DNA of 32,750 bases. It comes from Sphingomonadales bacterium (GTDB taxonomy: Bacteria > Bacteroidota > Bacteroidia > UBA7662). Positions within the stretch are counted from its first letter, which is position 1; each line of letters starts with the position of its first letter. Both the position numbers and the translations under genes were made by a program. The notes beneath the pieces are model-generated. The model did not search any database. It had not been told where the DNA came from and saw only the letters and a list, made by a program, of their open reading frames with translations. The stretch covers positions 1-32,750 of the forward strand of contig VHAX01000025.1 of assembly GCA_016872215.1 (NCBI GenBank), in the 5' to 3' direction. Of this stretch, positions 8,912 to 25,019 are shown piece by piece.

Positions 8912-9361
8912 ATGTCGCACTTTATCGGCGAATTCGAAATCCGACTGGATGCCAAAGGGCGGCTGGCTTTGCCAGCCGGGGTCATCCGTCAATTGCCCGC
9001 CGGTGGGGGCAAGGTGGTCATCAACCGGGGTTTCGAACCCTGCCTGGTGCTTTATCCCGGGGTAGAATGGGATCGGCAGGTGACCGAATTATCACGACTC
9101 AATCCCTATGTGAAGGAAAACCGGGAATTTGTGCGCTACTTCCTTCGTGGTGCTAGTCCCGCCGAACCCGATTCCACCAACCGCATCCTGATTCCACGGG
9201 CCCTGCTCGATTATGCGGGCATCGATAAGGATGTGGTGATGATGGGTAACCTCTCCAATCTGGAACTGTGGTCGCCCGAGCGCTATAAAGTCCAACTCGA
9301 CCGAGAGCCTGAGGATTTTTCGGCCCTGGCAGAAAAAGTGATGGGGGGGCGCAGCGTATGA
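8912..9361 (+). CDS. mraZ: Transcriptional regulator MraZ
   Basis: A 149-residue protein with the two tandem SpoVT/AbrB-like halves of MraZ. The first carries DAKGR (13-17) and the second carries DSTNRILIP (87-95), the conserved DNA-contact loops. MraZ forms ring-shaped oligomers that bind repeats ahead of the dcw operon and usually represses it. It is the first gene of the cluster, and its likely binding sites lie directly upstream. The stop codon overlaps the rsmH start by four bases (ATGA). There is no Shine-Dalgarno sequence before the ATG. Start choice is secure because MSHFIGEFEIRLDAKGR is the normal family N-terminus. Confidence 0.96.
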   Translation: MSHFIGEFEIRLDAKGRLALPAGVIRQLPAGGGKVVINRGFEPCLVLYPGVEWDRQVTELSRLNPYVKENREFVRYFLRGASPAEPDSTNRILIPRALLDYAGIDKDVVMMGNLSNLELWSPERYKVQLDREPEDFSALAEKVMGGRSV

Positions 9362-10353
9362 TGAGTATACCCGACACCCATCAGAGGCAGGAGCCATCAG
9401 CCGTGTCCTTCAGCCAGGCTCAGTCGGCCAATGAAACCCGATCCTACCACGACCCGGTCATGTTGCAGGAGTCGCTCGACGCCCTGCACATACGTCCCGG
9501 GGGCCGCTACATCGACCTAACTTTCGGGGGAGGCGGACATAGCCGCGCCCTGCTCGGGCGCCTCGGTGTGACGGGCCGGTTGCTGGCCTTCGACCAGGAT
9601 CCCGACGTACACGCCCATCTGCCCTATGATGGGCGTTTTGCATTCGCAGACACCAACTTTCGTCACCTCAAGCGCTTCGCCGCCCACCACGATATGTTGC
9701 AGGCCGACGGCATCCTGGCCGACCTCGGAATCAGCTCACACCAGATTGATGAGCCCGGTCGCGGATTTGCATTTCGGCACGAGGCCGACCTCGATATGCG
9801 GATGAACCCAAGGGCAGGACGAACAGCAGGGGATTTCCTGCGGCAAGCCGATGAAGAGGAAATAGCCCGTGTACTGCGGCAGTACGGCGAGATTACCGCC
9901 GCACGGCGCGTGGCCCAACTGGTAGCACTCGCCCGGACCCGCAACGCCATGAACACCACCGCCGATCTGTGCCGGGCCATAGAGCCCATTTCCGCCAGTG
10001 GGAAAGAACGGCAGTTCACCGCCCGCCTGTTTCAAGCCATTCGCATTCACCTCAATGACGAGCTGGGGTCTCTGCGCGAAATGCTGCAGCAAACCGCCGC
10101 CGTGTGCGCACCCGGAGGGTATCTGGTCGTAATCAGCTACCATTCCCTGGAGGACCGCCTCGTGAAGCAATTCATGCGTAGCGGACATTTCCACAGCACA
10201 ATCGAAAAGGATGTATTTGGACATTCTATTCGTCCGTTCGAACCCACACCCATACAGGCATTGCAGGCGTCTGAACAGGAAACGGCCGCCAACCCCCGAG
10301 CCAGGAGTGCGCGTTTGCGCGTGGCTCGTCGCACCCCAACCCCCTGGCCATGA
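9358..10353 (+). CDS. rsmH: 16S rRNA (cytosine(1402)-N(4))-methyltransferase RsmH
   Basis: A 331-residue protein. After an unconserved N-terminal stretch of about 29 residues, the family start YHDPVMLQESLDAL appears, then the SAM-binding DLTFGGGGHSRALL (53-66), LADLGISSHQID, RGFAFRHEADLDMRMN, and SYHSLEDRLVK near 260. RsmH (formerly MraW) methylates N4 of C1402 in 16S rRNA; it sits in dcw clusters for historical rather than pathway reasons. It overlaps mraZ and ftsL by four bases each. A second ATG directly follows the first, and the N-terminal extension makes a later start possible, but no other ATG fits before the conserved region. Confidence 0.96.
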   Translation: MMSIPDTHQRQEPSAVSFSQAQSANETRSYHDPVMLQESLDALHIRPGGRYIDLTFGGGGHSRALLGRLGVTGRLLAFDQDPDVHAHLPYDGRFAFADTNFRHLKRFAAHHDMLQADGILADLGISSHQIDEPGRGFAFRHEADLDMRMNPRAGRTAGDFLRQADEEEIARVLRQYGEITAARRVAQLVALARTRNAMNTTADLCRAIEPISASGKERQFTARLFQAIRIHLNDELGSLREMLQQTAAVCAPGGYLVVISYHSLEDRLVKQFMRSGHFHSTIEKDVFGHSIRPFEPTPIQALQASEQETAANPRARSARLRVARRTPTPWP

Positions 10354-10808
10354 ACCAGAACCGCAGGCGCATTGAGAAGTCCGAATCGGTCGGATTTTGG
10401 TCGACTTTGATGGGGCGTGCCGACCGCCACCACGCGCAGGTCGACAACGATCCTGAGGAATCGGAACCGGGTACCACGGCAACATCGGTCTCCGGACAGT
10501 GGCAATGGTCTGATTTGTCGCGCCACATCCCCTTCATCATCTACTGCACCCTTCTGCTCCTGCTTTACATCGCCAACGGTCACAACCAGGAATCGATGCA
10601 GCGAAGAATCCTGACCACCCGGCAAGAAGTGGAGGATCTAAAGGCTGAATATATTCTGCTGCAAGCGGAAGTCATGCACCTCGGACGCCGCAGTCAGGTG
10701 CTCGACCGCCTGCAAACCATGGGAATGGGATGGAAAGCCCCGCAGGACCCACCCATTGAATTGAACCCCGAGTCCAATGGCACAAGCACCCAAAAAGAGG
10801 GAAAATGA
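10350..10808 (+). CDS. ftsL: FtsL-like divisome membrane protein
   Basis: A 152-residue bitopic protein: a charged cytoplasmic N-terminus of about 58 residues, one membrane span at about 60-75 (PFIIYCTLLLLLYIAN), and a heptad-rich extracytoplasmic helix at about 80-122 containing EVEDLKAEYILLQAEV. This is the FtsL/DivIC layout. Sequence conservation in this family is low, so the call rests on topology, size and the fixed position between rsmH and the ftsI-type gene in Bacteroidota. It would link FtsQ and the FtsW-FtsI synthase in the divisome. Start and stop overlap the neighbours by four bases. The C-terminal 30 residues are Pro/Asn/Gly-rich and probably disordered. Confidence 0.8.
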   Translation: MNQNRRRIEKSESVGFWSTLMGRADRHHAQVDNDPEESEPGTTATSVSGQWQWSDLSRHIPFIIYCTLLLLLYIANGHNQESMQRRILTTRQEVEDLKAEYILLQAEVMHLGRRSQVLDRLQTMGMGWKAPQDPPIELNPESNGTSTQKEGK

Positions 10809-13054
10809 GCGGGCAGAAGAACATATTCAACAGAAGCCTGATCGTGTTTGCGATTCTGTCGCTGGGATTTGTGGCGATCCTCGGCCGTGCGGTGTACATA
10901 CAGAAAGTGCACGGAAAGCACTACCGCGATTTGTCGCAGAAGATGATGCTCGCAACCCGAACCCTCGATGCACAGCGTGGAAACATATACGCCCAGGATG
11001 GGAGTCTGCTGGCCACCACCATCACCCGCTATGATTTGCGTTTCGACGCCACTACATCCGGTCTCTCAAATGAGATCATCAACGAGAAAGTAGATTCGCT
11101 GGCAGCGGGACTAGCTAAAATATTGGACGGCAAAAAGAGCGAATACAGCCGATTACTGATTGACGCATGGCATCAAAAGCGCTCCGACCTGCTCATAGCA
11201 CGGAATGTCGATTACCTGCAGCTTCAGCAGGTGCGCGCATTGCCCCTAATCAACCTGGCCCGCACGCGGAAAAGACATGTCTACCATGGTGGACTCGTAG
11301 TGGAGGCTCATTCCCACCGTGAACGGCCTATGGGGCGACTGGCCTCACGGACGGTGGGCTATCACAAGCCGGAGAGCAGGCAGAAGGCGGTGGGCATAGA
11401 AGCATCGTACGACACCGCCCTGGCCGGGGTGCCCGCACAATCCCATATGCGCCGAATTGCTAATGGAATGTGGATTCCGATCGACGGTATGCCACTGGTG
11501 CCGCCAAAACACGGAATGGATGTGGTCACCACCCTCGATATGCAGCTGCAGGACGTGGCTGACGAGGCATTGTGTCAGGCTCTGCACGACTACAGAGCCT
11601 CTCATGGAACAGTAGTGGTTATGGAAGTGGCCACCGGCAACATCCGGGCTATGGTAAACCTGTTGAGAACCGAAGGAGAAAGTCGTTGCGATGAGCAAAT
11701 CAACTATGCAGTAACCGAAAGTCAGGACCCCGGATCCACCTTTAAGCTCATCAGCATGATGGTGGCCCTGGAAGATGCAGGGGTGTTGCCCTCCACTAGG
11801 GTTGACCTCAACGGCGGGATATGGAACTTCGGTTCAAGGGTCATGGAAGACACCCGGCAGCACGGAATCGACCAGGCGGACCTCACCGAAATATTCGCCA
11901 GAAGCTCCAATGTGGGCATTTCACGCCTGATACAGCAGTATTACGGAAAAAATCCATGGCGTTTCATCCACAAGTTGGAGGAGCTGGGCGTTGAACGTCC
12001 GAGTGGCATCTCCCTGGCCATGGAGGGCGTAGCGAAAATCACCAGACCCAACACAGCAGGATGGTCGGACGTTTCCCTACCCTGGCTGAGTGTTGGGTAC
12101 GGACTCAACCTCACCCCTTTGCAGATTTTGTGCCTCTACAATACCGTGGCCAACAAAGGCCGGAGGGTTACGCCACGATTGGTTGATGAAATCCGAAGCC
12201 CCCATCCCAATCATTCCGTAAAGACCCCGATACGGGTAAGCAACGAGCCCATCGCATCCCAAAAGACACTGAACGCGCTCACCCAAATGCTGAGAGCGGT
12301 TGTGGAGCGGAAGGATATGGGCACCGGAATCCGCATGCACAACCCGGCCTACACCGTGGCGGCGAAAACCGGAACGGCGCAAATGGTGGTCAACCAGAAA
12401 TATGTAAAGCGCTACCGGAGCAGCGTGGCCGGCTTTTTTCCAGCCGAAGACCCCCGCTACAGTATGGTGGTGATGTTGGCGGATCTTGGCGACTCCGCTT
12501 ATTATGGAGGTGTGGTGGCGGGCTCCGTGTTTCGGAAGGTGGCCGATCACCTTTATGCCCGCGGTTGGGGCGATGCAGGCCGGAATGCCCCCAGACATTG
12601 GGACAATGACAGCACACCCGCACCCCTTGTGAGCGGCCTCACTGTCCCGACCCGTAAGGCCCTGCAACAGCTTGGAATGAAGCACCATACAACGAAGCTG
12701 CAATCAACCAACTCCGGATCCAAGGGTGGGAACGGATTCATAGGCGACACGGATGCTACCGCATCCCCCGGCGTTTTCGCCTCAGGCAACTCAGCTGGTC
12801 CGGGTGAAGGTATTACAGGCAGCTCCTGGTTACAGACTCATAGCGTTAAAGGCACATGGCAGATGGTGGAAGTCAACGCCCGCAAAGGGGTGGTGGCTGA
12901 CCTCACGGGCATGGGTCTCAGCGATGCCCTTCAGGTGGCCGGTTATCTCGGTTATCCAACAGAAGTATTCGGACGGGGACGGGTGGTACGGCAAAACCCT
13001 GCCCCCGGTACCGCACAGGCAGCCGGTAAAAACCTAACCCTCTACCTCGAATGA
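10805..13054 (+). CDS. ftsI: Penicillin-binding protein FtsI/SpoVD-type transpeptidase with PASTA domain
   Basis: A 749-residue class B PBP. One membrane span lies at about 10-31, a dimerisation/pedestal region follows, and then the transpeptidase domain with the three active-site motifs: S311-T-F-K314 (nucleophile S311), S367-S-N369, and K521-T-G523. It cross-links septal peptidoglycan with FtsW. After the catalytic domain there is a linker of about 80 residues, rich in Gly, Ser, Thr and Asn (about 610-690), then one PASTA domain (about 695-749, GVVADLTGMGLSDAL...). PASTA domains are familiar in SpoVD and in Bacteroidota FtsI. The ATGA overlaps with ftsL and murE point to translational coupling. 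Confidence 0.95.
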   Translation: MSGQKNIFNRSLIVFAILSLGFVAILGRAVYIQKVHGKHYRDLSQKMMLATRTLDAQRGNIYAQDGSLLATTITRYDLRFDATTSGLSNEIINEKVDSLAAGLAKILDGKKSEYSRLLIDAWHQKRSDLLIARNVDYLQLQQVRALPLINLARTRKRHVYHGGLVVEAHSHRERPMGRLASRTVGYHKPESRQKAVGIEASYDTALAGVPAQSHMRRIANGMWIPIDGMPLVPPKHGMDVVTTLDMQLQDVADEALCQALHDYRASHGTVVVMEVATGNIRAMVNLLRTEGESRCDEQINYAVTESQDPGSTFKLISMMVALEDAGVLPSTRVDLNGGIWNFGSRVMEDTRQHGIDQADLTEIFARSSNVGISRLIQQYYGKNPWRFIHKLEELGVERPSGISLAMEGVAKITRPNTAGWSDVSLPWLSVGYGLNLTPLQILCLYNTVANKGRRVTPRLVDEIRSPHPNHSVKTPIRVSNEPIASQKTLNALTQMLRAVVERKDMGTGIRMHNPAYTVAAKTGTAQMVVNQKYVKRYRSSVAGFFPAEDPRYSMVVMLADLGDSAYYGGVVAGSVFRKVADHLYARGWGDAGRNAPRHWDNDSTPAPLVSGLTVPTRKALQQLGMKHHTTKLQSTNSGSKGGNGFIGDTDATASPGVFASGNSAGPGEGITGSSWLQTHSVKGTWQMVEVNARKGVVADLTGMGLSDALQVAGYLGYPTEVFGRGRVVRQNPAPGTAQAAGKNLTLYLE

Positions 13055-14517
13055 ACCGCAACATCGGCCAGATCATCGCGGAAATAGACAGTGCGGTTCT
13101 CAAGGGCTCGCCCGATACCGCTTGCGGCAGGTTGTGCATCGACTCGCGGCAGGTGGGTGAGGGTGATGCATTTGTGGCCCTTAGGGGCACGCGAATCGAT
13201 GGACATGCATTTATTGAAGCTGTACTCGACGCCGGTGCCACAGTTATCGTTGCGGAAACCGAGCCACAGGCTGCTTTGCCGGAAGGCGTGGCCTGGGTTA
13301 GGGTGACCGACAGTAGTAAGGCAGCGGGGCTAATGGCAGCTGCATGGTATGAACATCCCTCGCGGAAGTTGAAATTGACCGGCGTCACCGGCACCAACGG
13401 TAAAACCACCGCGGTAAGCCTAATGTTTGGTCTTTTTCAGGCATTGGGATACCGCTGCGGTATGCTGTCGACCATCGGAAACCGCATAGGTGATCAGGAA
13501 TTCGAGGCCACCCACACCACGCCCGATGCCATACGGATACAGGAGATGCTGTCCCGGATGGTCGAGGCCAGATGTACACATGCCTTCATGGAAGTGAGCA
13601 GCCATTCGGCCGTGCAAAACCGGATCGAGGGACTCGACTTTGCGCTGGCGCTGTTCACCAACATCACCCACGACCACCTCGACTACCACGGCACGTTCGA
13701 CAAATACATACTGGCGAAAAAATCATTCTTCGACCGGCTCGGCTCCGACGCCGTGGCGCTGGTGAATGCCGACGACCGACATGCCGGGGTGATGGTGCAA
13801 AACACTGCGGCCGAGGTGCAGCGCTACGGATTGTTCCACGACGCACGATACAGGGCCCGTATACTCGAAAATAGTTTCGACGGGATGCACCTGCAGATCG
13901 ACGGACACGATTTTTATAGTCCACTCATCGGCAGCTTCAATGCCAGTAACCTCCTGGCCGCCTACGCTGCCGGATGCGCTTTGGAGGAGGAGCCCACCCG
14001 ATTGTTAGTGGAACTATCACGCCTCGGTCCACCCCGCGGACGCTTCGACTATGTGCGATCGGACCGGGGCATCACAGGGATTGTCGACTACGCACATAGC
14101 CCCGATGCACTGGAACACGTGCTTGAAACCCTGCGTGACATCCGCCGGGCGGGACAAAAAATCATTACCGTGGTCGGCTGCGGGGGTGACCGCGACCGCA
14201 GTAAGCGCCCGGTCATGGCGGGACTCGCAGCACGGCTGTCGGATCGCGCCATCCTCACCAGCGACAATCCCCGAACGGAAGACCCAGAAGCCATACTCGA
14301 TGAGATGATGGACGGACTCAGGATTGAGGAGCGCCTCAACTTGCTGCGTATTACCGACCGGACAGAGGCCATTCGGGCTGCCTGCATGCTGGCTAGTCCG
14401 GGCGATCTCGTTTTGGTGGCCGGAAAGGGCCATGAAACCTACCAGGAAATAGCCGGCGTGCGACATCCATTCGATGACCGTGCCCAATTGTGCATTCACC
14501 TTCAACCCGCCCTCTGA
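13051..14517 (+). CDS. murE: UDP-N-acetylmuramoyl-L-alanyl-D-glutamate--2,6-diaminopimelate ligase MurE
   Basis: A 488-residue Mur ligase of normal length. The ATP-binding loop GVTGTNGKTT covers 111-120, THTTPD follows near 150, and the MEVSSHSAVQNRI segment is typical of MurE. The DNPR motif at D405-R408 marks meso-diaminopimelate as the added amino acid; lysine-adding enzymes lack it. It therefore indicates DAP-type peptidoglycan. It acts in the cytoplasm after MurD. The gene overlaps ftsI by four bases and shares one base with the mraY start (TGATG). Confidence 0.96.
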   Translation: MNRNIGQIIAEIDSAVLKGSPDTACGRLCIDSRQVGEGDAFVALRGTRIDGHAFIEAVLDAGATVIVAETEPQAALPEGVAWVRVTDSSKAAGLMAAAWYEHPSRKLKLTGVTGTNGKTTAVSLMFGLFQALGYRCGMLSTIGNRIGDQEFEATHTTPDAIRIQEMLSRMVEARCTHAFMEVSSHSAVQNRIEGLDFALALFTNITHDHLDYHGTFDKYILAKKSFFDRLGSDAVALVNADDRHAGVMVQNTAAEVQRYGLFHDARYRARILENSFDGMHLQIDGHDFYSPLIGSFNASNLLAAYAAGCALEEEPTRLLVELSRLGPPRGRFDYVRSDRGITGIVDYAHSPDALEHVLETLRDIRRAGQKIITVVGCGGDRDRSKRPVMAGLAARLSDRAILTSDNPRTEDPEAILDEMMDGLRIEERLNLLRITDRTEAIRAACMLASPGDLVLVAGKGHETYQEIAGVRHPFDDRAQLCIHLQPAL

Positions 14518-15653
14518 TGCTCTACGAATTGTTTGACTGGCTCGAATCGAACTATGACCTGCCCGGCAGCGGGGTCTTCCGGTTCATCACCTTCCGTGCC
14601 TCACTGGCCGCCATCCTGGCTATGCTCATCGGTACGTTCATCGGCAAATACATTATCAGCCAGCTGCACCGCAAACAAATCGGGGAAACCATCCGTGATG
14701 TGGGTCCCGAGAGCCATAGGTCGAAAAGGGGAACCCCAACCATGGGGGGTATCATCATATTGGTGGCCATACTATTGCCGTGCCTGCTGGTGGCCCGACT
14801 CGACAACATCTACGTGCTGGTTATGATGGGCGCCACGCTTTGGATGGGGCTTATCGGCTTGGCCGATGATTACATCAAGGTGTTTCTGAAAGACAAACAG
14901 GGCCTCCGGTCGGGAGCCAAGGTGCTCGGACAAGTTGGACTAGGAGTGCTCGTGGCCTCCGCCCTGTTTTTTCACCCCGACGTGCAGGACGTGGCCCTGC
15001 GCACCAACCTACCCGTCACGAAGCACCTGTTCGACTACAGCCAGCTCGCCTGGGGGCCCATGTCCTCCTGGCTAGTCTATTTCGGGGTGATCGTGCTGAT
15101 TGTGACCGCAGTCACCAATTCGGTGAATCTCACCGACGGCATCGACGGACTCGCAGCAGGAGTTTCGGCAATCACCGGTACGGGCCTCGGTATCCTCGCC
15201 TATATGAGCGGGAATATCAAAACGGCGGCCTACCTCAACATCCTCTACGTACCCATGAGCGGTGAAGTTGTAGTGTTTCTGGCTGCACTGGTAGGGGCCT
15301 GCATCGGCTTTTTGTGGTACAATACCTATCCCGCTCAGGTCTTCATGGGCGATACCGGATCACTGGCCCTGGGCGGTGCCCTCGCCTCTAGCGCCATAAT
15401 CGTGAAAATGGAGCTCCTTTTGCCCATACTGTGTGGGATCTTCTTTGTAGAGAGCCTTTCGGTAATCGTGCAGGTATCCTATTTCAAATACACCAAAAAG
15501 AGGTACGGAGAGGGCAGGCGCATCTTCCGGATGTCGCCCCTACACCACCACTTTGAATTAGGTGGTTTGGCCGAGCCAAAAATTGTGACCCGCTTTTGGA
15601 TTGTGGCCATTCTCTTAGTGTTGGTAGCCGTGGCCCTCCTCAAACTCAGATAA
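14517..15653 (+). CDS. mraY: Phospho-N-acetylmuramoyl-pentapeptide-transferase MraY
   Basis: A 378-residue polytopic membrane enzyme that moves phospho-MurNAc-pentapeptide onto undecaprenyl phosphate to form lipid I. I chose the ATG at 14517 (MLYELFDWLES) because it is the usual family N-terminus and forms a TGATG junction with murE; an in-frame ATG 27 nt upstream lies within murE. Family motifs are clear: KRGTPTMGG, GLADDYIKV, NLTDGIDGLAAG, FMGDTGSLALGG and PLHHHFELGG. About ten membrane segments are visible. murD follows after 47 nt. Confidence 0.96.
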   Translation: MLYELFDWLESNYDLPGSGVFRFITFRASLAAILAMLIGTFIGKYIISQLHRKQIGETIRDVGPESHRSKRGTPTMGGIIILVAILLPCLLVARLDNIYVLVMMGATLWMGLIGLADDYIKVFLKDKQGLRSGAKVLGQVGLGVLVASALFFHPDVQDVALRTNLPVTKHLFDYSQLAWGPMSSWLVYFGVIVLIVTAVTNSVNLTDGIDGLAAGVSAITGTGLGILAYMSGNIKTAAYLNILYVPMSGEVVVFLAALVGACIGFLWYNTYPAQVFMGDTGSLALGGALASSAIIVKMELLLPILCGIFFVESLSVIVQVSYFKYTKKRYGEGRRIFRMSPLHHHFELGGLAEPKIVTRFWIVAILLVLVAVALLKLR

Positions 15654-15700
15654 GAAACGAACGATTGCACAGACCTGAACAAACCGAAATACCGTTGCTG

Positions 15701-17050
15701 ATGAAAAAAGAAATTCTCGTACTGGGGGGAGGTGAAAGTGGGGTGGGTGCTGCCATGCTGGCAGTAGCCAAAGGAATACGGGTACGGGTGAGCGATTCCG
15801 GACCAGTGCGGGATTCGTTCGGCGAAGAGCTCAACGACCTGGGAATCCCCTGGGAGGCTGGGGGGCACAACACGGGGCGGTGGGGACAAATATCAACCGT
15901 CGTGAAAAGTCCGGGTATACCCGATGATGCGGCCGTTGTTTTGGAACTCAGAAAAAAGGGAATCCCCGTCATCAGTGAAATTGAGTTTGCTGCCCAGCAT
16001 ACTCTGGCACGGTTGATTGGGATTACGGGTACCAACGGAAAGACCACAACGACCCTGCTCACGGCCGATATTTTCCGCCGGGCGGGTTGGAACATGGCTT
16101 ACGCAGGCAATGTTGGGAACAGCTTTGCCCGTTCAGTGGCCGAAGCCGGGCAGGATCGGGATGTGTACATTCTCGAAATCAGTAGTTTCCAGCTCGACGG
16201 GATGTACAACACCCGTCTGGATGTGGGGGTCATCACAAACATCACACCCGACCACCTCGATCGCTATCAATACCGCATGGAGAATTATGTGCAGTCGAAG
16301 CTGCGCATCGCAAGAAACATGCGGTCGACCGAAACCCTGATTTATTGTACCGATGACGCAACAACCTGCGCGGCTTTGTCGGAGGCCGACTCGTCGATCG
16401 GCGCCCGCCGAATGGGATTCGGCACTCAAAGAGTTCCAGGGTCCGGCGCCTGGATCGAAAACAACCACATAGTTCTGCATAACCCCAAAGAAGATATGTA
16501 TATACCCATCGATGATTTGTCGCTTAAAGGCAAACACAACACTCTCAACGCAATGGCGGCCGCCCTTCCCGCCCGATTATTCGACATCCGCAATGAAATC
16601 ATCCGCGATAGTTTGTCGCGCTTCGAGGCCATCGAACACCGACTCGAACCAGTGGCGACCATCAAGGGGGTCGACTACATCAACGACAGCAAGGCCACGA
16701 ATGTGAACTCTGTTTGGTTTGCCCTGGAGAGCATTTCCAAACCCATCGTGTGGATCGCGGGGGGTACCGATAAGGGCAACGACTATTCCGTGCTGGTGAA
16801 CCTGGTGCCGGGTCGGGTTAAGGCGCTCATTTGTATGGGGCTCGACAACCGCCTGCTTCACGACGCCTTTTCAGATGTGGTGCCGGTTATGGTGAACACT
16901 TCCTCCATGGAAGAAAGCGTTCGCATGGCCTATCACCTGGCCGAAAAGGGCGATGTGGTGTTGCTTTCGCCCGCCTGTGCCAGCTTCGATTTGTTTCAGA
17001 ATTATGAGGACAGAGGTCGGCAGTTCAAGAAGTATGTAAAAATGCTATAG
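15701..17050 (+). CDS. murD: UDP-N-acetylmuramoylalanine--D-glutamate ligase MurD
   Basis: A 449-residue Mur ligase. The start at 15701 (MKKEILVLGGGESGVGAAML) places the family Rossmann motif at the N-terminus; the open frame runs further upstream into mraY, but that extension has no homology-like character. The ATP loop GITGTNGKTTTT, the EISSFQLDG segment, NITPDHLDRY, and YINDSKATNVNSV with IAGGTDKGNDY are all standard for MurD. It adds D-glutamate to UDP-MurNAc-L-Ala in the cytoplasm. An unusually A/T-rich 54-nt spacer follows before ftsW. Confidence 0.95.
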   Translation: MKKEILVLGGGESGVGAAMLAVAKGIRVRVSDSGPVRDSFGEELNDLGIPWEAGGHNTGRWGQISTVVKSPGIPDDAAVVLELRKKGIPVISEIEFAAQHTLARLIGITGTNGKTTTTLLTADIFRRAGWNMAYAGNVGNSFARSVAEAGQDRDVYILEISSFQLDGMYNTRLDVGVITNITPDHLDRYQYRMENYVQSKLRIARNMRSTETLIYCTDDATTCAALSEADSSIGARRMGFGTQRVPGSGAWIENNHIVLHNPKEDMYIPIDDLSLKGKHNTLNAMAAALPARLFDIRNEIIRDSLSRFEAIEHRLEPVATIKGVDYINDSKATNVNSVWFALESISKPIVWIAGGTDKGNDYSVLVNLVPGRVKALICMGLDNRLLHDAFSDVVPVMVNTSSMEESVRMAYHLAEKGDVVLLSPACASFDLFQNYEDRGRQFKKYVKML

Positions 17051-17104
17051 AGGAATATATTATTATAAAAAAACACGAAAAGAACATTAAAAAATCAGAA
17101 TTAA
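17051..17104 (+). promoter_or_regulatory. A/T-rich leader before ftsW
   Basis: Fifty-four bases, overwhelmingly A and T, inside an otherwise GC-rich cluster whose other junctions mostly overlap. I see no TAnnTTTG element. It may be a translation-enhancing leader of the kind that replaces Shine-Dalgarno sequences in Bacteroidota, or hold a promoter or processing site. Confidence 0.3.
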
Positions 17105-18295
17105 ATGAGTGTCATTCAATCAATAAAACTCAGAGGCGACCGATATATCTGGTTGCTTTCGGGTTTATTGATGCTGGCCTCAATGTTGCTCGTTTATTCG
17201 GCTACTGGAAGCCTGGCTCATCGCCAGCGGAACAGCGACACCGAGTATTATCTATTCAGACACATCGGGATTTCGGGCTTAGGACTGATTTTGATGTTTG
17301 CCATTCACCATGTGCCGTTCAAGTATGTGGGCAGATTCGCCCAATTCGGGTGGATACCGGCCGTCCTATTGCTTCTCTATACATTAATGAGCGGGACAGA
17401 AATGAACGATGCCAGCCGATGGGTTGAAATACCCTTGCTGGGTGTTAGCTTTCAGTCATCGGAATGGGCCCGGTTTGCGATCGTCTTGTTCCTCGCCCGA
17501 TTCTTGTCGCGCCGGCAAGACCAGCTCGACGATTGGAAGGCGATTTTTCTGCCTTTGATTGTGCCAGTGGGCCTTACTTTTCTGCTCATCGCACCAGCCA
17601 ACCTATCATCGGCCGCACTCTTTCTATTGGTGGTGGTGTTGTTGCTGGGAGTGGGATCCGTGCGCATGCGGCACCTGTTTGCGCTGATTTTTGGTTTTGC
17701 GTTCCTGGTGGTGACATTTGTCACCGTCACCCATCAATTCGGTTGGTTTCGATCCCAAACCTGGGTCAACCGGATCGGGGCCTTTGTTTCAGCTGACCTT
17801 AATGAAGAGCCCGAACAGGTAACCCAGGCCCGCATCGCCATTGTCACCGGTAGTTGGATAGGAAAGGGCCCGGGCAAGAGCACGCAGCGCAACTTCCTGC
17901 CGCAGGCCTACAACGATTTCATTTATGCAACTCTGCTCGAAGAGTATGGCATTGCAGGTGGGGCATCGATCTGCCTCCTCTATATTCTGCTCCTGTATCG
18001 GGTACTCAGGGCCATCCGACGCTCCGAGCAGCTATTTGGTAGCCTGCTCGCAGCCGGACTTGTGATCATGCTCACCGTTCAGGCGCTGGCCAATATGGCA
18101 GTGGCGGTGGGACTAGTACCAGTCACCGGCCAATCCCTCCCTCTGGTCAGCTGGGGTGGCACCTCGGTCCTGTTCACCTGCATTTCCCTTGGCATCATTC
18201 TCAGCGTTTGCCGCGAGGCCAATTCAGATCCATACGATGAAGGCAACGACGCCCGATCCGATCTTGCTTATTCACCCTCAAACCTTCCGGCATGA
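17105..18295 (+). CDS. ftsW: SEDS-family peptidoglycan glycosyltransferase FtsW
   Basis: A 396-residue membrane protein with about ten spans. It polymerises lipid II at the septum together with FtsI. The catalytic-type aspartate is D271 in AYNDFIYATLLEEYG, matching the essential aspartate of SEDS proteins. Other conserved parts are SRWVEIPLLGVSFQSSEWAR, the GSWIGKGPGKS loop and GQSLPLVSWGGTS near the C-terminus. It could be confused with RodA, but the position between murD and murG in the dcw cluster favours FtsW. The stop overlaps the next start by four bases (ATGA). Confidence 0.94.
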   Translation: MSVIQSIKLRGDRYIWLLSGLLMLASMLLVYSATGSLAHRQRNSDTEYYLFRHIGISGLGLILMFAIHHVPFKYVGRFAQFGWIPAVLLLLYTLMSGTEMNDASRWVEIPLLGVSFQSSEWARFAIVLFLARFLSRRQDQLDDWKAIFLPLIVPVGLTFLLIAPANLSSAALFLLVVVLLLGVGSVRMRHLFALIFGFAFLVVTFVTVTHQFGWFRSQTWVNRIGAFVSADLNEEPEQVTQARIAIVTGSWIGKGPGKSTQRNFLPQAYNDFIYATLLEEYGIAGGASICLLYILLLYRVLRAIRRSEQLFGSLLAAGLVIMLTVQALANMAVAVGLVPVTGQSLPLVSWGGTSVLFTCISLGIILSVCREANSDPYDEGNDARSDLAYSPSNLPA

Positions 18296-20871
18296 AGGAG
18301 CCCCGTTCCATATTGAAGGTGATAGTCAGCGGCGGCGGCACGGGTGGACACATATTCCCGGCCATCAGCATCGCACAGGCTCTGCTCAGGCATGTGCCAG
18401 ATGCCCGCATTGAGTTTGTGGGGGCGCGTGGACGAATGGAGATGACCCGCGTACCCCAGGCGGGTTTTCCCATCACCGGACTCTGGATCAGTGGCTGGCA
18501 ACGGGGCGAATTGCTCGGAAATCTTTCCCTTCCCCTCAAACTCCTGTACAGTCTGTGGCAGTCGCTCCGTTTTCTGGCCCAGAAGCGTCCCCACGCCGTG
18601 GTGGGTGTTGGAGGATACGCCAGCGCGCCCTTGATGATGGTGGCGCAATGGCTCGGTATTCCCACCTTTATACAGGAACAAAACGCCCACGCCGGGTTGA
18701 GCAACCGCTGGCTCGGACGCCGGGTACGCCGGTCTTGGGTAGCTTTTGAGGGTATGGAACGCTTTTTCATGGCCGATAGGCTGCGCATCACCGGTAATCC
18801 GGTGCGCAACGACCTCCTCGCACCCCTGCCCGAACGCCGTGAAGCCCTCCGGCACTTTGGTTTGGATGGCGATGGACCCGTACTGCTGGTCGTGGGTGGC
18901 AGCCTGGGCGCCCGTATTCTCAACGAATGCATGCTCGAGGCGCTCACCCAATTGCACTCGGCAGGCGTTAGGGTAATCTGGCAAACAGGCAAGCACTTCG
19001 CTCCAAAGGCGGCTGAATCCGGCACAGGTATTCCGGCGGGTTGGGTGTGGACTGGTGCGTTTATCGACAGCATGCCAATGGCATACGCAGCCGCCGACCT
19101 AGTGGTGTCGCGTGCCGGGGCTGGTACGCTCTCGGAACTGGCCGTGGTAGGCAAACCCGCCATATTGGTGCCCTCACCCTATGTGGCGGAAGACCATCAA
19201 ACTCGTAATGCACAAGTATTTGTGCGCGATGGGGCTGCCCTTATGGTGAAGGAGAGCGAGGCGGGCGGCCCCCAAGGCCAATTGATTCCGCTGATTCTGG
19301 AATTACTTAAAGACTCAGGTCGACGTGCCAATATGCGTTTGTCGCTCCACAAACACAACAGAAGCAGTGCAGCCGACGACATCGCACGGGATTTGTTAGC
19401 GGAAATTGGCTGGGTATATACGATCCCGGAAGGGGACATTTTATCATTCGGACGACTCTATTTCCTCGGCATTGGGGGAATCGGTATGAGTGCCCTGGCC
19501 CGCTGGTTTCGGGCACAGGGACGGCAGGTGGGGGGCTACGACCGGCAACTCGGTGCAATCGGACAAGAATTACAGGCGGAAGGGGTTACGATCACCACAG
19601 ACCCTGAGGTTGAAGCAATCCCGGAGGCATTCCGCACACCACAGTCCACCCTTGTGGTACGCACACCGGCAGTTCCAGCCACCCATCCCCAGCTGCAGTG
19701 GTTCACCCAACTGGGATTCAAGATGTGCAAAAGGGCGGAGGTGCTGGGACAAATATCACGGTCGACCCCCACGCTAGCTGTGGCAGGTACACATGGCAAA
19801 ACCACCACCTCGGTACTGCTCGCCCACCTCCTTCATGAGGCGGGTATGCGGTTCACAGCCATATTGGGGGGCGTATCCACCAATTTTGGCTCGAACTATT
19901 GGTCGACCGGCAACGAGTGGCTGGTGACGGAGGCCGATGAGTACGACCGCTCCTTCCTCCAGCTACACCCACATGCGGCCATAATCACCGGCACCGATGC
20001 TGATCACCTCGATGTCTATGGCAGTCCAGCCTCTATGCTCGAGGCCTATGAACAATTTGCCCGACAAGTACATAAAACCCTGCTGGTGCATACATCCGCA
20101 GAAATATACGCTCCAGAACATCCCGCTGTAGTTCGCTATGGCAATGGAGGAGCGGTTTGGGCCCACGCAGTCCGGGTCGATGGCCTGGGCATACGATTCG
20201 ACTACCACGGTGCCCATATACTCACCGACTTATACCTTCCCATGGGCGGCCGGCACAATGTCGATAATGCTCTGGCAGCCATCACTTTAGCCCTTAAGGT
20301 GGGGGTGCAGCCCGTGGAGATTGCCCCGGCATTGCGTTGCTTTAAAGCAGTGAAAAGGCGTTTCGAATACCGTTATAACAACAACAATATAATATTGATA
20401 GACGATTACGCCCACCATCCGGGCGAAATCGATGCACTCCTGTCGGGTGTGCGACTCCTGCATCCGGGGCGATCAATCATGGGGATTTTCCAGCCGCATT
20501 TGTTCACCCGCACCCGCGACTTCCTCGATGGCTTTGCCGGTAGTTTGTTGCACCTCAACGAGTGCCGTATCCTGCCCATCTATCCGGCACGCGAAGAGCC
20601 AATATCCGGTATCGACTCAGCAATACTTGTGGAAAAAATCAACGCCTGTGGCGGCAAGGGCCTCCTGTCGACCCCCGAAATGGTCATCGAAGAAGTAATG
20701 CGCGATCCTGAGGCGCACATCTGGCTATGCATCGGTGCGGGCGATATCGACCAGCTGGCGAACCAGTTAACCCATGCACTCGAGCAGCACGAAAAGGCCT
20801 CTGGTTTACATCCGAACCCTATGGATGCGGCGATACATCCCTCTGTTCACCCAACCCCCAACCCGGAATGA
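18292..20871 (+). CDS. murG/murC: Bifunctional MurG-MurC fusion: lipid II-forming GlcNAc transferase joined to UDP-MurNAc--L-alanine ligase
   Basis: One 859-residue open frame holds two complete enzymes. Residues 1 to about 378 are MurG: SGGGTGGHIFPAISIA, GVGGYASAPLMM, IQEQNAHAGLSNRW, ITGNPVRNDLL, VVGGSLGARILNE, SRAGAGTLSELAVVGKP and EDHQTRNA. Residues from about 386 are MurC: FLGIGGIGMSALARWF (glycine loop G393-G398), AGTHGKTTTS (K503), EADEYDRSF, TDADHLDVYG and DDYAHHPGEID. The junction is only about ten residues (around IPEGDILSFGR), with no ATG in frame near it. MurG acts at the inner membrane face to make lipid II; MurC starts the peptide stem in the cytoplasm. The two genes are normally adjacent but separate in Bacteroidota. 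Both lengths are normal, so neither domain looks damaged. A lost stop codon or a sequence error at the junction remains possible. Confidence 0.93.
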   Translation: MKEPRSILKVIVSGGGTGGHIFPAISIAQALLRHVPDARIEFVGARGRMEMTRVPQAGFPITGLWISGWQRGELLGNLSLPLKLLYSLWQSLRFLAQKRPHAVVGVGGYASAPLMMVAQWLGIPTFIQEQNAHAGLSNRWLGRRVRRSWVAFEGMERFFMADRLRITGNPVRNDLLAPLPERREALRHFGLDGDGPVLLVVGGSLGARILNECMLEALTQLHSAGVRVIWQTGKHFAPKAAESGTGIPAGWVWTGAFIDSMPMAYAAADLVVSRAGAGTLSELAVVGKPAILVPSPYVAEDHQTRNAQVFVRDGAALMVKESEAGGPQGQLIPLILELLKDSGRRANMRLSLHKHNRSSAADDIARDLLAEIGWVYTIPEGDILSFGRLYFLGIGGIGMSALARWFRAQGRQVGGYDRQLGAIGQELQAEGVTITTDPEVEAIPEAFRTPQSTLVVRTPAVPATHPQLQWFTQLGFKMCKRAEVLGQISRSTPTLAVAGTHGKTTTSVLLAHLLHEAGMRFTAILGGVSTNFGSNYWSTGNEWLVTEADEYDRSFLQLHPHAAIITGTDADHLDVYGSPASMLEAYEQFARQVHKTLLVHTSAEIYAPEHPAVVRYGNGGAVWAHAVRVDGLGIRFDYHGAHILTDLYLPMGGRHNVDNALAAITLALKVGVQPVEIAPALRCFKAVKRRFEYRYNNNNIILIDDYAHHPGEIDALLSGVRLLHPGRSIMGIFQPHLFTRTRDFLDGFAGSLLHLNECRILPIYPAREEPISGIDSAILVEKINACGGKGLLSTPEMVIEEVMRDPEAHIWLCIGAGDIDQLANQLTHALEQHEKASGLHPNPMDAAIHPSVHPTPNPE

Positions 20872-21629
20872 TGTTGCGTCGGATTCTCATCATTTCAGGT
20901 CACCTTGTTGCTGCGACCGTACTCATCTTGCTGCTGTCGTTCACGCGGCACCGCGACCGGGGGCAACGAATAGTAGCCCTACACATCGAAACCGACCACA
21001 GCGAGGGCCTCTATTTCGTCGACAACAGCCGCATCGACCACCTCATCCGCAGTCAGAATTTATATCGCGATAGCCTACCGGTGATTGAGCTCGACCCATC
21101 GGCCCTCGAAAGGCGATTGCTTCAGCATCCCCACATCAAAAGGGCTCAGGTGTTCCTCGATGCCCGCAACCACCTCTATATAAAGGTGTGGCAACGCACC
21201 CCAATCCTTCGGGTGATCAACCGTTGGCAGGAGCACTGCTATATCGATTCGGACCGCAGGGCTATGTATGTCGGTAGCGCTTTTACTGCGGATGTGCCGG
21301 TGGCCAGCGGCTACATCAGTCACCGCCCGTCTTTGGGCGACACCCTTCGCGATTCCCAAATGCTCTTGCTAGCCGATATAGCCGGTTGCATCAACCGCGA
21401 TCCTTGGCTCAAAAATCTGATTGTTCAGCTGTATGCCGACACCAACGGGACGTTGGAGATAATTCCCCGCCTTGGCGGCGCACGCATCCTGCTGGGCGAC
21501 ACCACACGTTGGGTGGCCAAAACCGAGAAACTCAAGGAATTCTGCAGACAAACTACCACCACGGGTGGACTCACCAAGTGGTCAACCATCAACCTATCTT
21601 ATAAAAATCAGCTGGTATGCCAAAAGTAA
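20868..21629 (+). CDS. ftsQ: Divisome protein FtsQ/DivIB-like
   Basis: A 253-residue single-span membrane protein. I chose the ATG at 20868 (MMLRRILIISGHL) because it forms an ATGA overlap with murC and places the membrane segment (about 6-24) at the N-terminus; the frame extends upstream within murC. The region after the span (about 40-110) has the POTRA-type pattern, including SALERRLLQHPHIKRAQVFLD and LYIKVWQRTPILRV, followed by a beta domain with YIDSDRRAMYV. FtsQ family conservation is low, but the fold pattern and the position before ftsA and ftsZ are diagnostic. It recruits FtsL and the septal synthase. It overlaps ftsA by 13 nt. Confidence 0.87.
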   Translation: MMLRRILIISGHLVAATVLILLLSFTRHRDRGQRIVALHIETDHSEGLYFVDNSRIDHLIRSQNLYRDSLPVIELDPSALERRLLQHPHIKRAQVFLDARNHLYIKVWQRTPILRVINRWQEHCYIDSDRRAMYVGSAFTADVPVASGYISHRPSLGDTLRDSQMLLLADIAGCINRDPWLKNLIVQLYADTNGTLEIIPRLGGARILLGDTTRWVAKTEKLKEFCRQTTTTGGLTKWSTINLSYKNQLVCQK

Positions 21630-22966
21630 AACCCGAACCTCCACCCGAGGAAATAGTGGTGGGCCTCGATGTGGGCACCACTAAAATTTGCGCAATTGTA
21701 GGCTCACGTAATGAGTATGGAAAAATCGATATTCTTGGACAGGGCTCCGCTGTTTCCGACGGGGTGAATCTGGGAGAGGTGCAGAACATCGACAAAACTG
21801 TGGCGGCCATTCAGAAGGCCATACGGGCCGCTGAGGAAAGCGCACAGGTCGATATTGGGGTGGTACATGTGGGTATTGCGGGTCAGCACATCAACAGCGT
21901 GCAACACCGGCATTCCATACTGAGGCTGAGCAACACCGAGGAAATATCCCGCAAGGATGTCGACGACCTTGTCGATTCGATCTACCGCCTGCCTATGGAA
22001 ACCGGCTACGAGATAATACATGTGCTGCCACAGGAATTTAGGGTCGACCACATCACTGGCATAAAGGATCCTGTTGGGATGAGCGGTGTGCGCCTCGATG
22101 CTGATTTCCACATCATCACCGGAAAAATTGCCTCGGCAAGCATGTTGAACCGCTGTGTACAAAAAGCAGGCTTGCAGGTGAGCGACCTGATCCTTGAGTC
22201 CATCGCCTCAGCCGAATCGGTCTTGCATGAGGATGAACGCGAGGCCGGTGTGGCGCTGGTCGACATCGGCGGGGGCACCACCGACATCGCCATTTTCAAG
22301 GACAACATCATCCGGCACTCGGCCAGCATACCGCTGGGGGGGAACATAATCACCCACGACATCCATGTAGGCTGCGCAATTATGGCAACGCAGGCCGAGA
22401 AACTGAAGGTGCAGTTCGGTTCGGCCTTGGCCAAGGAGGTACGTGACAACGAAATTGTGGTGGTACCTAACCTCCATGGTCGCGATCCGAAGGAAATATC
22501 GACCCGAAACCTCGCTTCGATCATTCAATCGCGCGTAGAAGAGATGGTGGAACATGTGCGCTACGCAATTCGGGTATCGGGCTTCGAAAGGCAGTTGATT
22601 GGTGGAGTCGTGCTCACAGGCGGTGGCTCCCAAATGCGGCACATCCGACCCCTATTTGAATATATGACGGGCCTCGACGTGCGTTTGGGTTGTCCGGGTG
22701 AACACCTGGCCGCGGGTAATGAGCAGGTCGCGAACGCCCAGTATGCAACTGGGGTGGGACTCGTCATGCTCGGGCTGCTGGATTTTGCCCGTCCCGGGCG
22801 TGAGCGTGATGAGGTCCAACGACCCGAATCCCGCCTGCATCGTGGCGGCTTCTTCGACAATTTCATTCGTCGGGCCGGAAACTGGATGGAAGACCACTTC
22901 AATGAAAAGCCCAATAAGCGAAATCCATCTAACCGGAACCGTCCCAGTGATCAAAATTCTAATTAA
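21617..22966 (+). CDS. ftsA: Cell division protein FtsA
   Basis: A 449-residue actin-fold ATPase. The first phosphate loop is VGLDVGTTKICAIVG; the 1C domain follows (VGIAGQHINSVQ region); the second phosphate motif is LVDIGGGTTDIAIF; the adenosine motif is VVLTGGGSQMRHI. After about residue 395 comes a basic, Arg/Asn-rich tail with FIRRAGNWMEDHF, which resembles the C-terminal amphipathic membrane-targeting helix, although further residues follow it. FtsA anchors FtsZ filaments to the membrane. The gene starts within the end of ftsQ and is separated from ftsZ by a very A/T-rich 31-nt gap. Confidence 0.95.
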   Translation: MPKVKPEPPPEEIVVGLDVGTTKICAIVGSRNEYGKIDILGQGSAVSDGVNLGEVQNIDKTVAAIQKAIRAAEESAQVDIGVVHVGIAGQHINSVQHRHSILRLSNTEEISRKDVDDLVDSIYRLPMETGYEIIHVLPQEFRVDHITGIKDPVGMSGVRLDADFHIITGKIASASMLNRCVQKAGLQVSDLILESIASAESVLHEDEREAGVALVDIGGGTTDIAIFKDNIIRHSASIPLGGNIITHDIHVGCAIMATQAEKLKVQFGSALAKEVRDNEIVVVPNLHGRDPKEISTRNLASIIQSRVEEMVEHVRYAIRVSGFERQLIGGVVLTGGGSQMRHIRPLFEYMTGLDVRLGCPGEHLAAGNEQVANAQYATGVGLVMLGLLDFARPGRERDEVQRPESRLHRGGFFDNFIRRAGNWMEDHFNEKPNKRNPSNRNRPSDQNSN

Positions 22967-22997
22967 TATTTTAATATAAATATAACACATAAAATAT
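22967..22997 (+). promoter_or_regulatory. A/T-rich leader before ftsZ
   Basis: Thirty-one bases almost free of G and C, directly before the ATG at 22998. Like the stretch before ftsW, it stands out from its GC-rich surroundings. It could raise translation of ftsZ or contain an ftsZ promoter; I find no clear TAnnTTTG within it. Confidence 0.3.
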
Positions 22998-25019
22998 ATG
23001 ATTTTTACTTCCTTTCAATCTGATTCCTCCTCCGAAAATTCTCAACCCCTTAACCCCACAAACAACTTTTCTATGTCAATAGCTTCCGAAAACCTCGTTT
23101 TTGATCTGCCTTCGGCACGACCCAACATTATCAAAGTAATCGGTGTGGGCGGTGCGGGCGGAAATGCGGTCAACCACATGTTCCAGACCGGAATCCATGA
23201 GGTCGACTTCCTCCTGTGCAACACCGACTACCAGGCGCTTGAACGCAGCAGAGTGAGCATGCGCCTACAACTGGGCCCAAATCTCACCGCCGGCCGTGGT
23301 GCGGGCAACCGACCAGAGGTGGGACGGGAAGCAGCGATAGAAACGCTCGATGACTTGCGCGCCCACCTGGGCGAGGATACCCGAATGGTCTTCATAACGG
23401 CCGGACTGGGTGGGGGAACTGGCACCGGTGCAGCTCCGGTTATCGCCCGTCTGTGTCGCGAGCTCGACATCCTCACCGTGGGAATCGTAACCCTTCCCTT
23501 CTCCTTCGAAGGGAAGAAACGCCTCAATCAGGCTACCGAGGGATTGGAACAATTGAGGACGCAGTGCGACACCACCCTTGTCATCAGCAACGACAAAGTA
23601 CGGGAGGTCTACGGCAATCTGGCATTTGATCAGGCATTCGCACGTGCCGACGATGTTTTGGCCACTGCAGCGAAAGGAATTGCCGAGATCATCACAATCG
23701 AGGGACACGTCAACGTTGATTTTTCTGATGTGAATACTGTGCTGCGTAACAGCGGAAAGGCGGTGATGGGGAGCGGATTGGGAACAGGAGCCGACCGGGC
23801 CATTATGGCTATTCAGGAAGCTTTAAGCTCGCCTCTGCTCAACGATAACGACATTACCGGAGCGGGGAGCATTTTGCTGAACATTAGCTCGGGCGAGCAG
23901 ACGATCACGCTCGATGAAATTGGCGAAATCAACGATTACATTCAAACGGCGGCGGGTTCCGACACCAACATCATCTGGGGCAACTGCACAGATCCTCAAC
24001 TCGCCGACGCGGTGCGGGTAACCGTCATCGCCACCGGCTTTTTAGGTGGATCCACGGAATCGACCCGTCGCACCCTGGTGCCGATGGCTGAAACAGCCAC
24101 AGAGGTTAACTCAGGCATTTCCGTGGCCGCGGCTTCTGTTGTGCCCCCTGCAACGCAACTACCAGAGATGGAGGCAGGTGCCCGCCTCGAGATCCGGGAA
24201 GGAAAGCAAACGCTGGTCCATACCCTCGACGGACAAAATTCTCAGGTTTTGGGTAGTTCCATGGGTTCAATGACGCCGTCATCGGAAGCGGCAAGCCAAG
24301 CTCAGGACATTCTACAGCAACCGATTGATTCGCAAGCTGAATCTCAAGCATCGGCTCAATCTGCAGCACAAACCGCAGCTCCGTCCACATCGCAAACCTC
24401 GGCACACCCAGCAACGCAACCCGCAGAGCCCAGGACCCTCCGTGAGCACCTTTTTGGTGATAACGCGCCTAGTAAGGCCTTGTTCAGTTTTTTTGGCTCG
24501 TCCGACAAAAATAATGGCCCGTCAACCCCGCCAGTCCCCCAGCCGGAAGAGATGCCGGTTGTTAATCCAGAACCAGTGCCGAACTCAAAGGCGGGGTCAA
24601 AGCTGAAAAAAAAGACGGAAGCAACGCAGGAGTCCAAATCGGAAGTAAGGAGAGGGGCATCGCCACAATCAGAGCCGGAGGCAACGTTACCCACAGCAAC
24701 TACGCCCATCCCGATGGCCCACATCCCGCAAAGCCCGATTTCGGTACCCCCACCGGTGGCCCGGCCTGCACACGAGGACGTGCTCGGACGGTCGGAGCGC
24801 CGCCGGCAAACCCTGCGTGGACTCAGTTTCCGTGGACACGAAATAGCCGGTCCGGGAGAAGTGCGCAGCGAACCCGCCTTTATGCGTAAAGGCGTGCAAT
24901 TGTCACCCGTCGAATCCAGCGATGCCCACCCTGTCAGTCGCTTCACACTGGGAGAATCGCCCGATCAGCGCCCGGAAATCCGTGAGAACAACGCCTTTCT
25001 GCACGACAACGTCGACTAA
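22998..25019 (+). CDS. ftsZ: Cell division protein FtsZ with long C-terminal linker
   Basis: A 673-residue tubulin homologue that forms the Z-ring. The GTPase core runs from about residue 40 to 355: KVIGVGGAGGNAVNHMF, the tubulin signature GGGTGTGAAPVIA (138-150), and NVDFSDVNTVLRNSGKAVMG at the T7 loop. A linker of about 250 residues, rich in Gln, Ala, Ser and Pro, follows; then the C-terminal FtsA-binding type peptide (EPAFMRKGVQL near 624) and the Bacteroidota-style end NNAFLHDNVD. Start choice is uncertain. The ATG at 22998 follows an A/T-rich leader; the ATG at 23073 gives MSIASENLVFDLP, closer to the usual N-terminus in the phylum. It is the last gene of the cluster, with a terminator-like structure about 45 nt downstream. 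Confidence 0.96.
   Translation: MIFTSFQSDSSSENSQPLNPTNNFSMSIASENLVFDLPSARPNIIKVIGVGGAGGNAVNHMFQTGIHEVDFLLCNTDYQALERSRVSMRLQLGPNLTAGRGAGNRPEVGREAAIETLDDLRAHLGEDTRMVFITAGLGGGTGTGAAPVIARLCRELDILTVGIVTLPFSFEGKKRLNQATEGLEQLRTQCDTTLVISNDKVREVYGNLAFDQAFARADDVLATAAKGIAEIITIEGHVNVDFSDVNTVLRNSGKAVMGSGLGTGADRAIMAIQEALSSPLLNDNDITGAGSILLNISSGEQTITLDEIGEINDYIQTAAGSDTNIIWGNCTDPQLADAVRVTVIATGFLGGSTESTRRTLVPMAETATEVNSGISVAAASVVPPATQLPEMEAGARLEIREGKQTLVHTLDGQNSQVLGSSMGSMTPSSEAASQAQDILQQPIDSQAESQASAQSAAQTAAPSTSQTSAHPATQPAEPRTLREHLFGDNAPSKALFSFFGSSDKNNGPSTPPVPQPEEMPVVNPEPVPNSKAGSKLKKKTEATQESKSEVRRGASPQSEPEATLPTATTPIPMAHIPQSPISVPPPVARPAHEDVLGRSERRRQTLRGLSFRGHEIAGPGEVRSEPAFMRKGVQLSPVESSDAHPVSRFTLGESPDQRPEIRENNAFLHDNVD

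Follow-up and report, generated by a model that had tools for sequence, protein, structure and literature searches.

The question raised by this locus, which comes from a small genus of uncultured Bacteroidota, is whether MurG and MurC are produced as a single polypeptide, and, if they are, how the two genes were joined and what the joining would mean for the cell. UDP-MurNAc-L-Ala is formed in the cytoplasm by MurC, and lipid II by MurG, an enzyme peripherally bound to the membrane. In the window (the whole stretch of 32,750 nucleotides that was analysed), positions 8912-25019 contain a complete dcw cluster in the order mraZ-rsmH-ftsL-ftsI-murE-mraY-murD-ftsW-murG::murC-ftsQ-ftsA-ftsZ, in which murE, murG and ftsQ each begin at an ATGA overlap; murF lies elsewhere. 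Note that the ftsI-type penicillin-binding protein of this cluster (10805-13054) fell far short of all NCBIfam cut-offs, with 217 bits of 455 at best, and carries a long extension at its C-terminus past about residue 590, and that the ftsQ-position protein (20868-21629), with no NCBIfam match at E 1e-10, was named from its position only.

The fused frame and its join

The initial annotation had described a single frame of 859 residues with the main motifs of both enzymes, and our analysis confirmed both the frame and the motifs. The frame is initiated by ATG, and its predicted product has 859 amino acids and a mass of 93.7 kDa (Table 1). The MurG motifs GGTGGHIFPA, GVGGYAS, EQNAHAG, NPVR, GGSLGAR, RAGAGTLSEL and DHQTRNA, and the MurC motifs GIGGIGMSA, GTHGKTTT, EADEYDRSF, DADHLDVY, RRFEY, DDYAHHP, FQPHLFTRTRD and GAGDI, were all found in it, and the two parts align with solved MurG (3s2u, 7d1i and 1f0k) and solved MurC (6cau among others), respectively. 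Among the NCBIfam profiles, TIGR01133 (MurG) matched with 275.2 bits against a cut-off of 250.25 (profile 6-351 of 353). TIGR01082 (MurC) matched over its full length (profile 2-448 of 449) with 332.4 bits, which is 2.7 below the cut-off of 335.1; the same profile gave 338.2 bits, above the cut-off, for a congener and 351-364 bits for unfused relatives, and the next ligase family, at 189 bits, was a MurC/Ddl model, of which MurC is itself a part. With Pfam, both glycosyltransferase-28 and all three Mur-ligase domains, five in total for the two enzymes, exceeded their cut-offs.

Table 1. Positions of the fused gene, its parts and the neighbouring overlaps in the window, and of the fused genes in family f64
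Feature	Location	Strand	Basis
Fused murG::murC gene	18292..20871	+	single stop-free frame; same frame in two congeners
MurG part, residues 8-366	18313..19389	+	TIGR01133, alignment, Foldseek, motif positions
Linker, residues 372-387	19405..19452	+	codon reading, three-species alignment, model confidence
MurC part, residues 389-826	19456..20769	+	TIGR01082, alignment, Foldseek, motif positions
C-terminal extension, residues 827-859	20770..20868	+	pLDDT, congener comparison
ATGA overlap, ftsW stop / murG start	18292..18295	+	sequence
ATGA overlap, murC stop / ftsQ start	20868..20871	+	sequence
f64 fusion, G165 (L120/L131)	G165:C5:49436-51871		
f64 fusion, G295 (L121/L130)	G295:C97:11719-14256		

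An AlphaFold model of the fused protein, built from 71 aligned rows, had a mean pLDDT of 92, with most of both domains above 90, and a pTM of 0.66. Foldseek matched its MurG half to 1nlm, 3s2u and 1f0k and its MurC half to 2f00 and 1p3d. The linker, which follows the last MurG helix (residues 360-371) and precedes the first MurC strand (388-392), is closer to 16 residues than to the ten or so estimated initially and has a pLDDT below 50 at residues 376-380. The pTM and the low-confidence linker fit a pair of rigid bodies without a fixed position relative to each other in the model. At the other end of the protein, the last MurC helix ends at residue 837 and is followed by a variable tail, with a pLDDT below 50 at 849-859 and a sequence that diverges from the congener's.

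The fused gene is the only copy of each of its parts in this genome (2.09 Mb, 99.3% complete, draft in 53 contigs). The initial annotation had asked about another murG or murC elsewhere in it, and our search of the 99.3%-complete assembly found neither a second MurG-type glycosyltransferase domain nor a second MurC. One match on contig C5, a frame of 473 amino acids with 30% identity, is Mpl-like, and the remaining Mur-ligase matches were MurE, MurD, MurF, a MurF-like/alanine racemase fusion and one further protein with the ligase middle domain, which is presumably FolC. The MurF-like/alanine racemase fusion is apparently encoded in the same genome around 24237 of contig C27 (G000:C27; L205:1135-3351), and a normal separate MurF is encoded on contig C12 (L203:1198-2550).

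A sequencing or assembly error, which deleted a stop codon or shifted the frame between two separate genes, could in principle produce such a frame; the assembly is a draft, and murG and murC are separate in relatives from outside the genus. We sampled three other genomes of the genus, and the locus was present in two of them. These two, G001 (contig VGGT01000233) and G002 (contig CAIVQI010000044), come from separate projects and have the same uninterrupted fused frame, with proteins 76-78% identical to that of the window, although the locus in G002 stops inside MurC at a contig end; in the third (G003), the contig ends at murE, leaving no locus to read. The alignment of the three proteins at the join is gap-free, with neither a stop nor an indel, the two kinds of change that had been named beforehand as arguing against the fusion, and the relatives with separate genes belong to other genera and are not near-identical loci. 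Since independent assemblies share the frame and the join length despite a synonymous divergence in MurG of about 1 to 1.7, which is near saturation, the probability of such an error is negligible, and we rejected it for practical purposes.

Within the genus, the linker has kept its length and frame in all three species while its sequence has been relaxed: its dN is 0.25-0.48 versus about 0.09-0.13 for MurG, and its changes are more numerous at third codon positions than at first or second positions. The linker residues are poorly conserved, which gives no sign that the linker has a function of its own. The initial annotation had noted the absence of an in-frame ATG at the join, which proved correct, and the codons there also include no GTG or TTG. 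The closest TTG is at residue 368 (19393), within the MurG helix, and an ATT is found at 19438. The window retains GGAAGGGG-ACATT at the place where sister genera carry a purine-rich stretch followed by ATG, and GGAAGGGGACATT can still be read there, so that two products might be conceived, the full fusion and a free MurC started internally near the join at AUU 19438 behind GGAAGGGG or at UUG 19393. The linker of G002 contains an in-frame ATG, which would also fit an internal start. However, the three species share neither a start codon nor a purine-rich stretch at any one position, and we regard the production of a free MurC as improbable.

Distribution and origin of the fusion

To survey the fusion, we used the whole protein as the query against 395 sampled genomes of the class, 392 sampled genomes of the phylum and 60 near relatives, and a collection of 84,980 species was scanned with a pattern. 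The DNA was read for nearly all listed full-span matches with a single internal stop and for several long-frame matches. Among the matches read, 174 loci had both genes, and these were in separate frames at 164 loci and in one frame at ten, the latter from five genomes; among the further loci read beyond these, only repeat copies of the window's gene were not separate. As the initial annotation expected, adjacent but unfused murG and murC genes are the norm in Bacteroidota. Fused lineages numbered two among the 738 genomes drawn, in a survey where fused genes with a very long linker between them would appear split and could escape. A widespread fusion in Bacteroidota was rejected because dozens of full-length same-frame matches carry a stop at the join, and the very long 'open frames' of G077, G359, G190, G318 and others turned out, when the DNA was read, to be separate genes.

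The second fused lineage is family f64 of Bacteroidia, in which both sampled genomes, from two different genera, have the fusion (Table 1), with linkers of about 13 and 33 residues that differ from those of the window genus. In the rest of the order of f64, no fusion was found at loci where both genes were readable. A maximum likelihood tree of MurG plus MurC required two changes, and the AU test rejected a single clade of all fused rows (P = 0.00013), indicating at least two origins in Bacteroidia and rejecting one common origin for the fusions of the window genus and f64.

The relatives of the window genus suggest how its fusion arose. In the sister genera g2, g3 and g4 and in family f3 of the same order, murG and murC are separate genes, and the stop codon of the first overlaps the start codon of the second in four bases, ATGA, as in GGGGGGAAGTCATGATTGCC of G010 (L010) and GCCGCATGATTGG of G005 (L013). 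Junctions of this kind still flank the fused gene at either end, and the murG/murC boundary has lost its own. As the ATGA overlap puts murC out of the murG frame, a fusion requires a net length change of +1 (mod 3) and the loss of the stop codon; a conserved isoleucine close to the MurG terminus and the first MurC strand are 44 bases apart in G010 and 51 bases apart in the window. Judging from these sequences, a small indel that placed murG in the frame of murC is the most likely origin of the fusion. The ancestor would have had murG and murC meeting at the overlap, probably with translational coupling, and the change near the end of murG would have led into the murC frame, removed the stop and made the murC start dispensable. 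A bifunctional MurG-MurC would then have replaced the two separate genes on the stem of the genus, its product being presumably two independently folding enzymes with intact signature motifs and a short flexible linker between them. Taken together, we consider it highly probable that the locus encodes a true bifunctional MurG-MurC, which replaced overlapping genes via a frame change and in which MurC would be tethered to MurG at 1:1.

Possible consequences of the fusion

The most likely consequence, as read from the gene, is a fixed 1:1 output of the two enzymes, because both are in one polypeptide, and the tethering of MurC to the membrane-associated MurG. MurC would be kept within a few nanometres of MurG and hence at whatever place on the membrane MurG occupies. 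An intermediate is not expected to pass directly between the two sites since their steps are not consecutive, and the benefit, if any, would likely be co-localisation and fixed dosage. The initial annotation proposed that the fusion could bring the pathway to the septum, which is plausible, although translational coupling or neutral explanations may account for the fusion as well.

A serious rival to any such benefit is neutral fixation by a frameshift between overlapping genes: the neighbours lost a stop by accident, both enzymes work, and the tether gives nothing. One small indel suffices to fuse genes overlapping at ATGA, the linker is short, variable and predicted to be disordered, fusions are rare in our survey, and the two reactions are non-consecutive. 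On the other hand, the fusion has stayed whole in each of the three sequenced loci of the genus and in the two genera of f64, it has two origins in Bacteroidota in addition to the case in C. gilvus (PMC4929429), and elsewhere MurG binds other Mur enzymes (PMC6420597), although none of these is proof of selection. We consider the neutral account a substantial possibility that falls somewhat short of being probable; it opposes only the supposed benefit and not the fusion itself, and our estimates for the different readings are not parts of one total. The adaptive reading, in which the first ligase was recruited to the membrane-bound last enzyme and helps to keep the cytoplasmic Mur enzymes where lipid II is formed, and in which recurrence would make closeness of MurC and MurG a general property of the Mur complex, is offered tentatively and seems to us rather doubtful. 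If unrelated lineages repeatedly fuse enzymes from opposite ends of the pathway, this would support a physical Mur complex around MurG. The fused gene is also a natural construct with a fixed MurC-MurG stoichiometry, and the fused genus and its sister genera with ATGA-overlapping genes offer a clear comparison for the effect of tethering.

Comparison with known fusions

The initial annotation left open whether the fusion had been described in this lineage. We found no description of a MurG-MurC fusion in Bacteroidota in the searchable literature, which is weak evidence as most subscription papers lie outside such a search, but the fusion itself is known: murG/murC fusions, one of them named in the actinomycete C. 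gilvus, were reported in 2016 (PMC4929429, Figure 3), and MurG and MurC fusions were mentioned again in 2019 (PMC6420597), in both papers without a phylogeny of the C. gilvus fusion. The latter paper also made the argument from non-consecutive steps for MurG/MurC and MurC/Ddl fusions, and found MurG to oligomerise and to bind MurE-MurF. In searchable papers, the Bacteroidota cases and the route from overlap to fusion appear to be unreported. The window fusion is an independently evolved case of a known type, an uncommon variation rather than a new system.

Like the C. gilvus fusion (PMC4929429), that of the window has murG and murC in one uninterrupted frame in the dcw cluster, although C. gilvus belongs to a different phylum; its fusion was compared through the published description. 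Bordetella MurE-MurF (PMC6420597) is similar in joining two Mur enzymes of the dcw cluster in one flexible, elongated polypeptide and in its tie to MurG, which binds it, but it consists of consecutive ligases, whereas here a late glycosyltransferase is joined to the first ligase. Verrucomicrobium MurB/C (PMC4803751) and Chlamydia MurC/Ddl likewise combine MurC with another enzyme of the pathway in a lineage-restricted manner, the partner there being MurB or Ddl. The MurF-like/alanine racemase fusion (NCBIfam PRK11930 type) also joins two enzymes of cell wall precursor synthesis, although the enzymes are others and the origin is unrelated.
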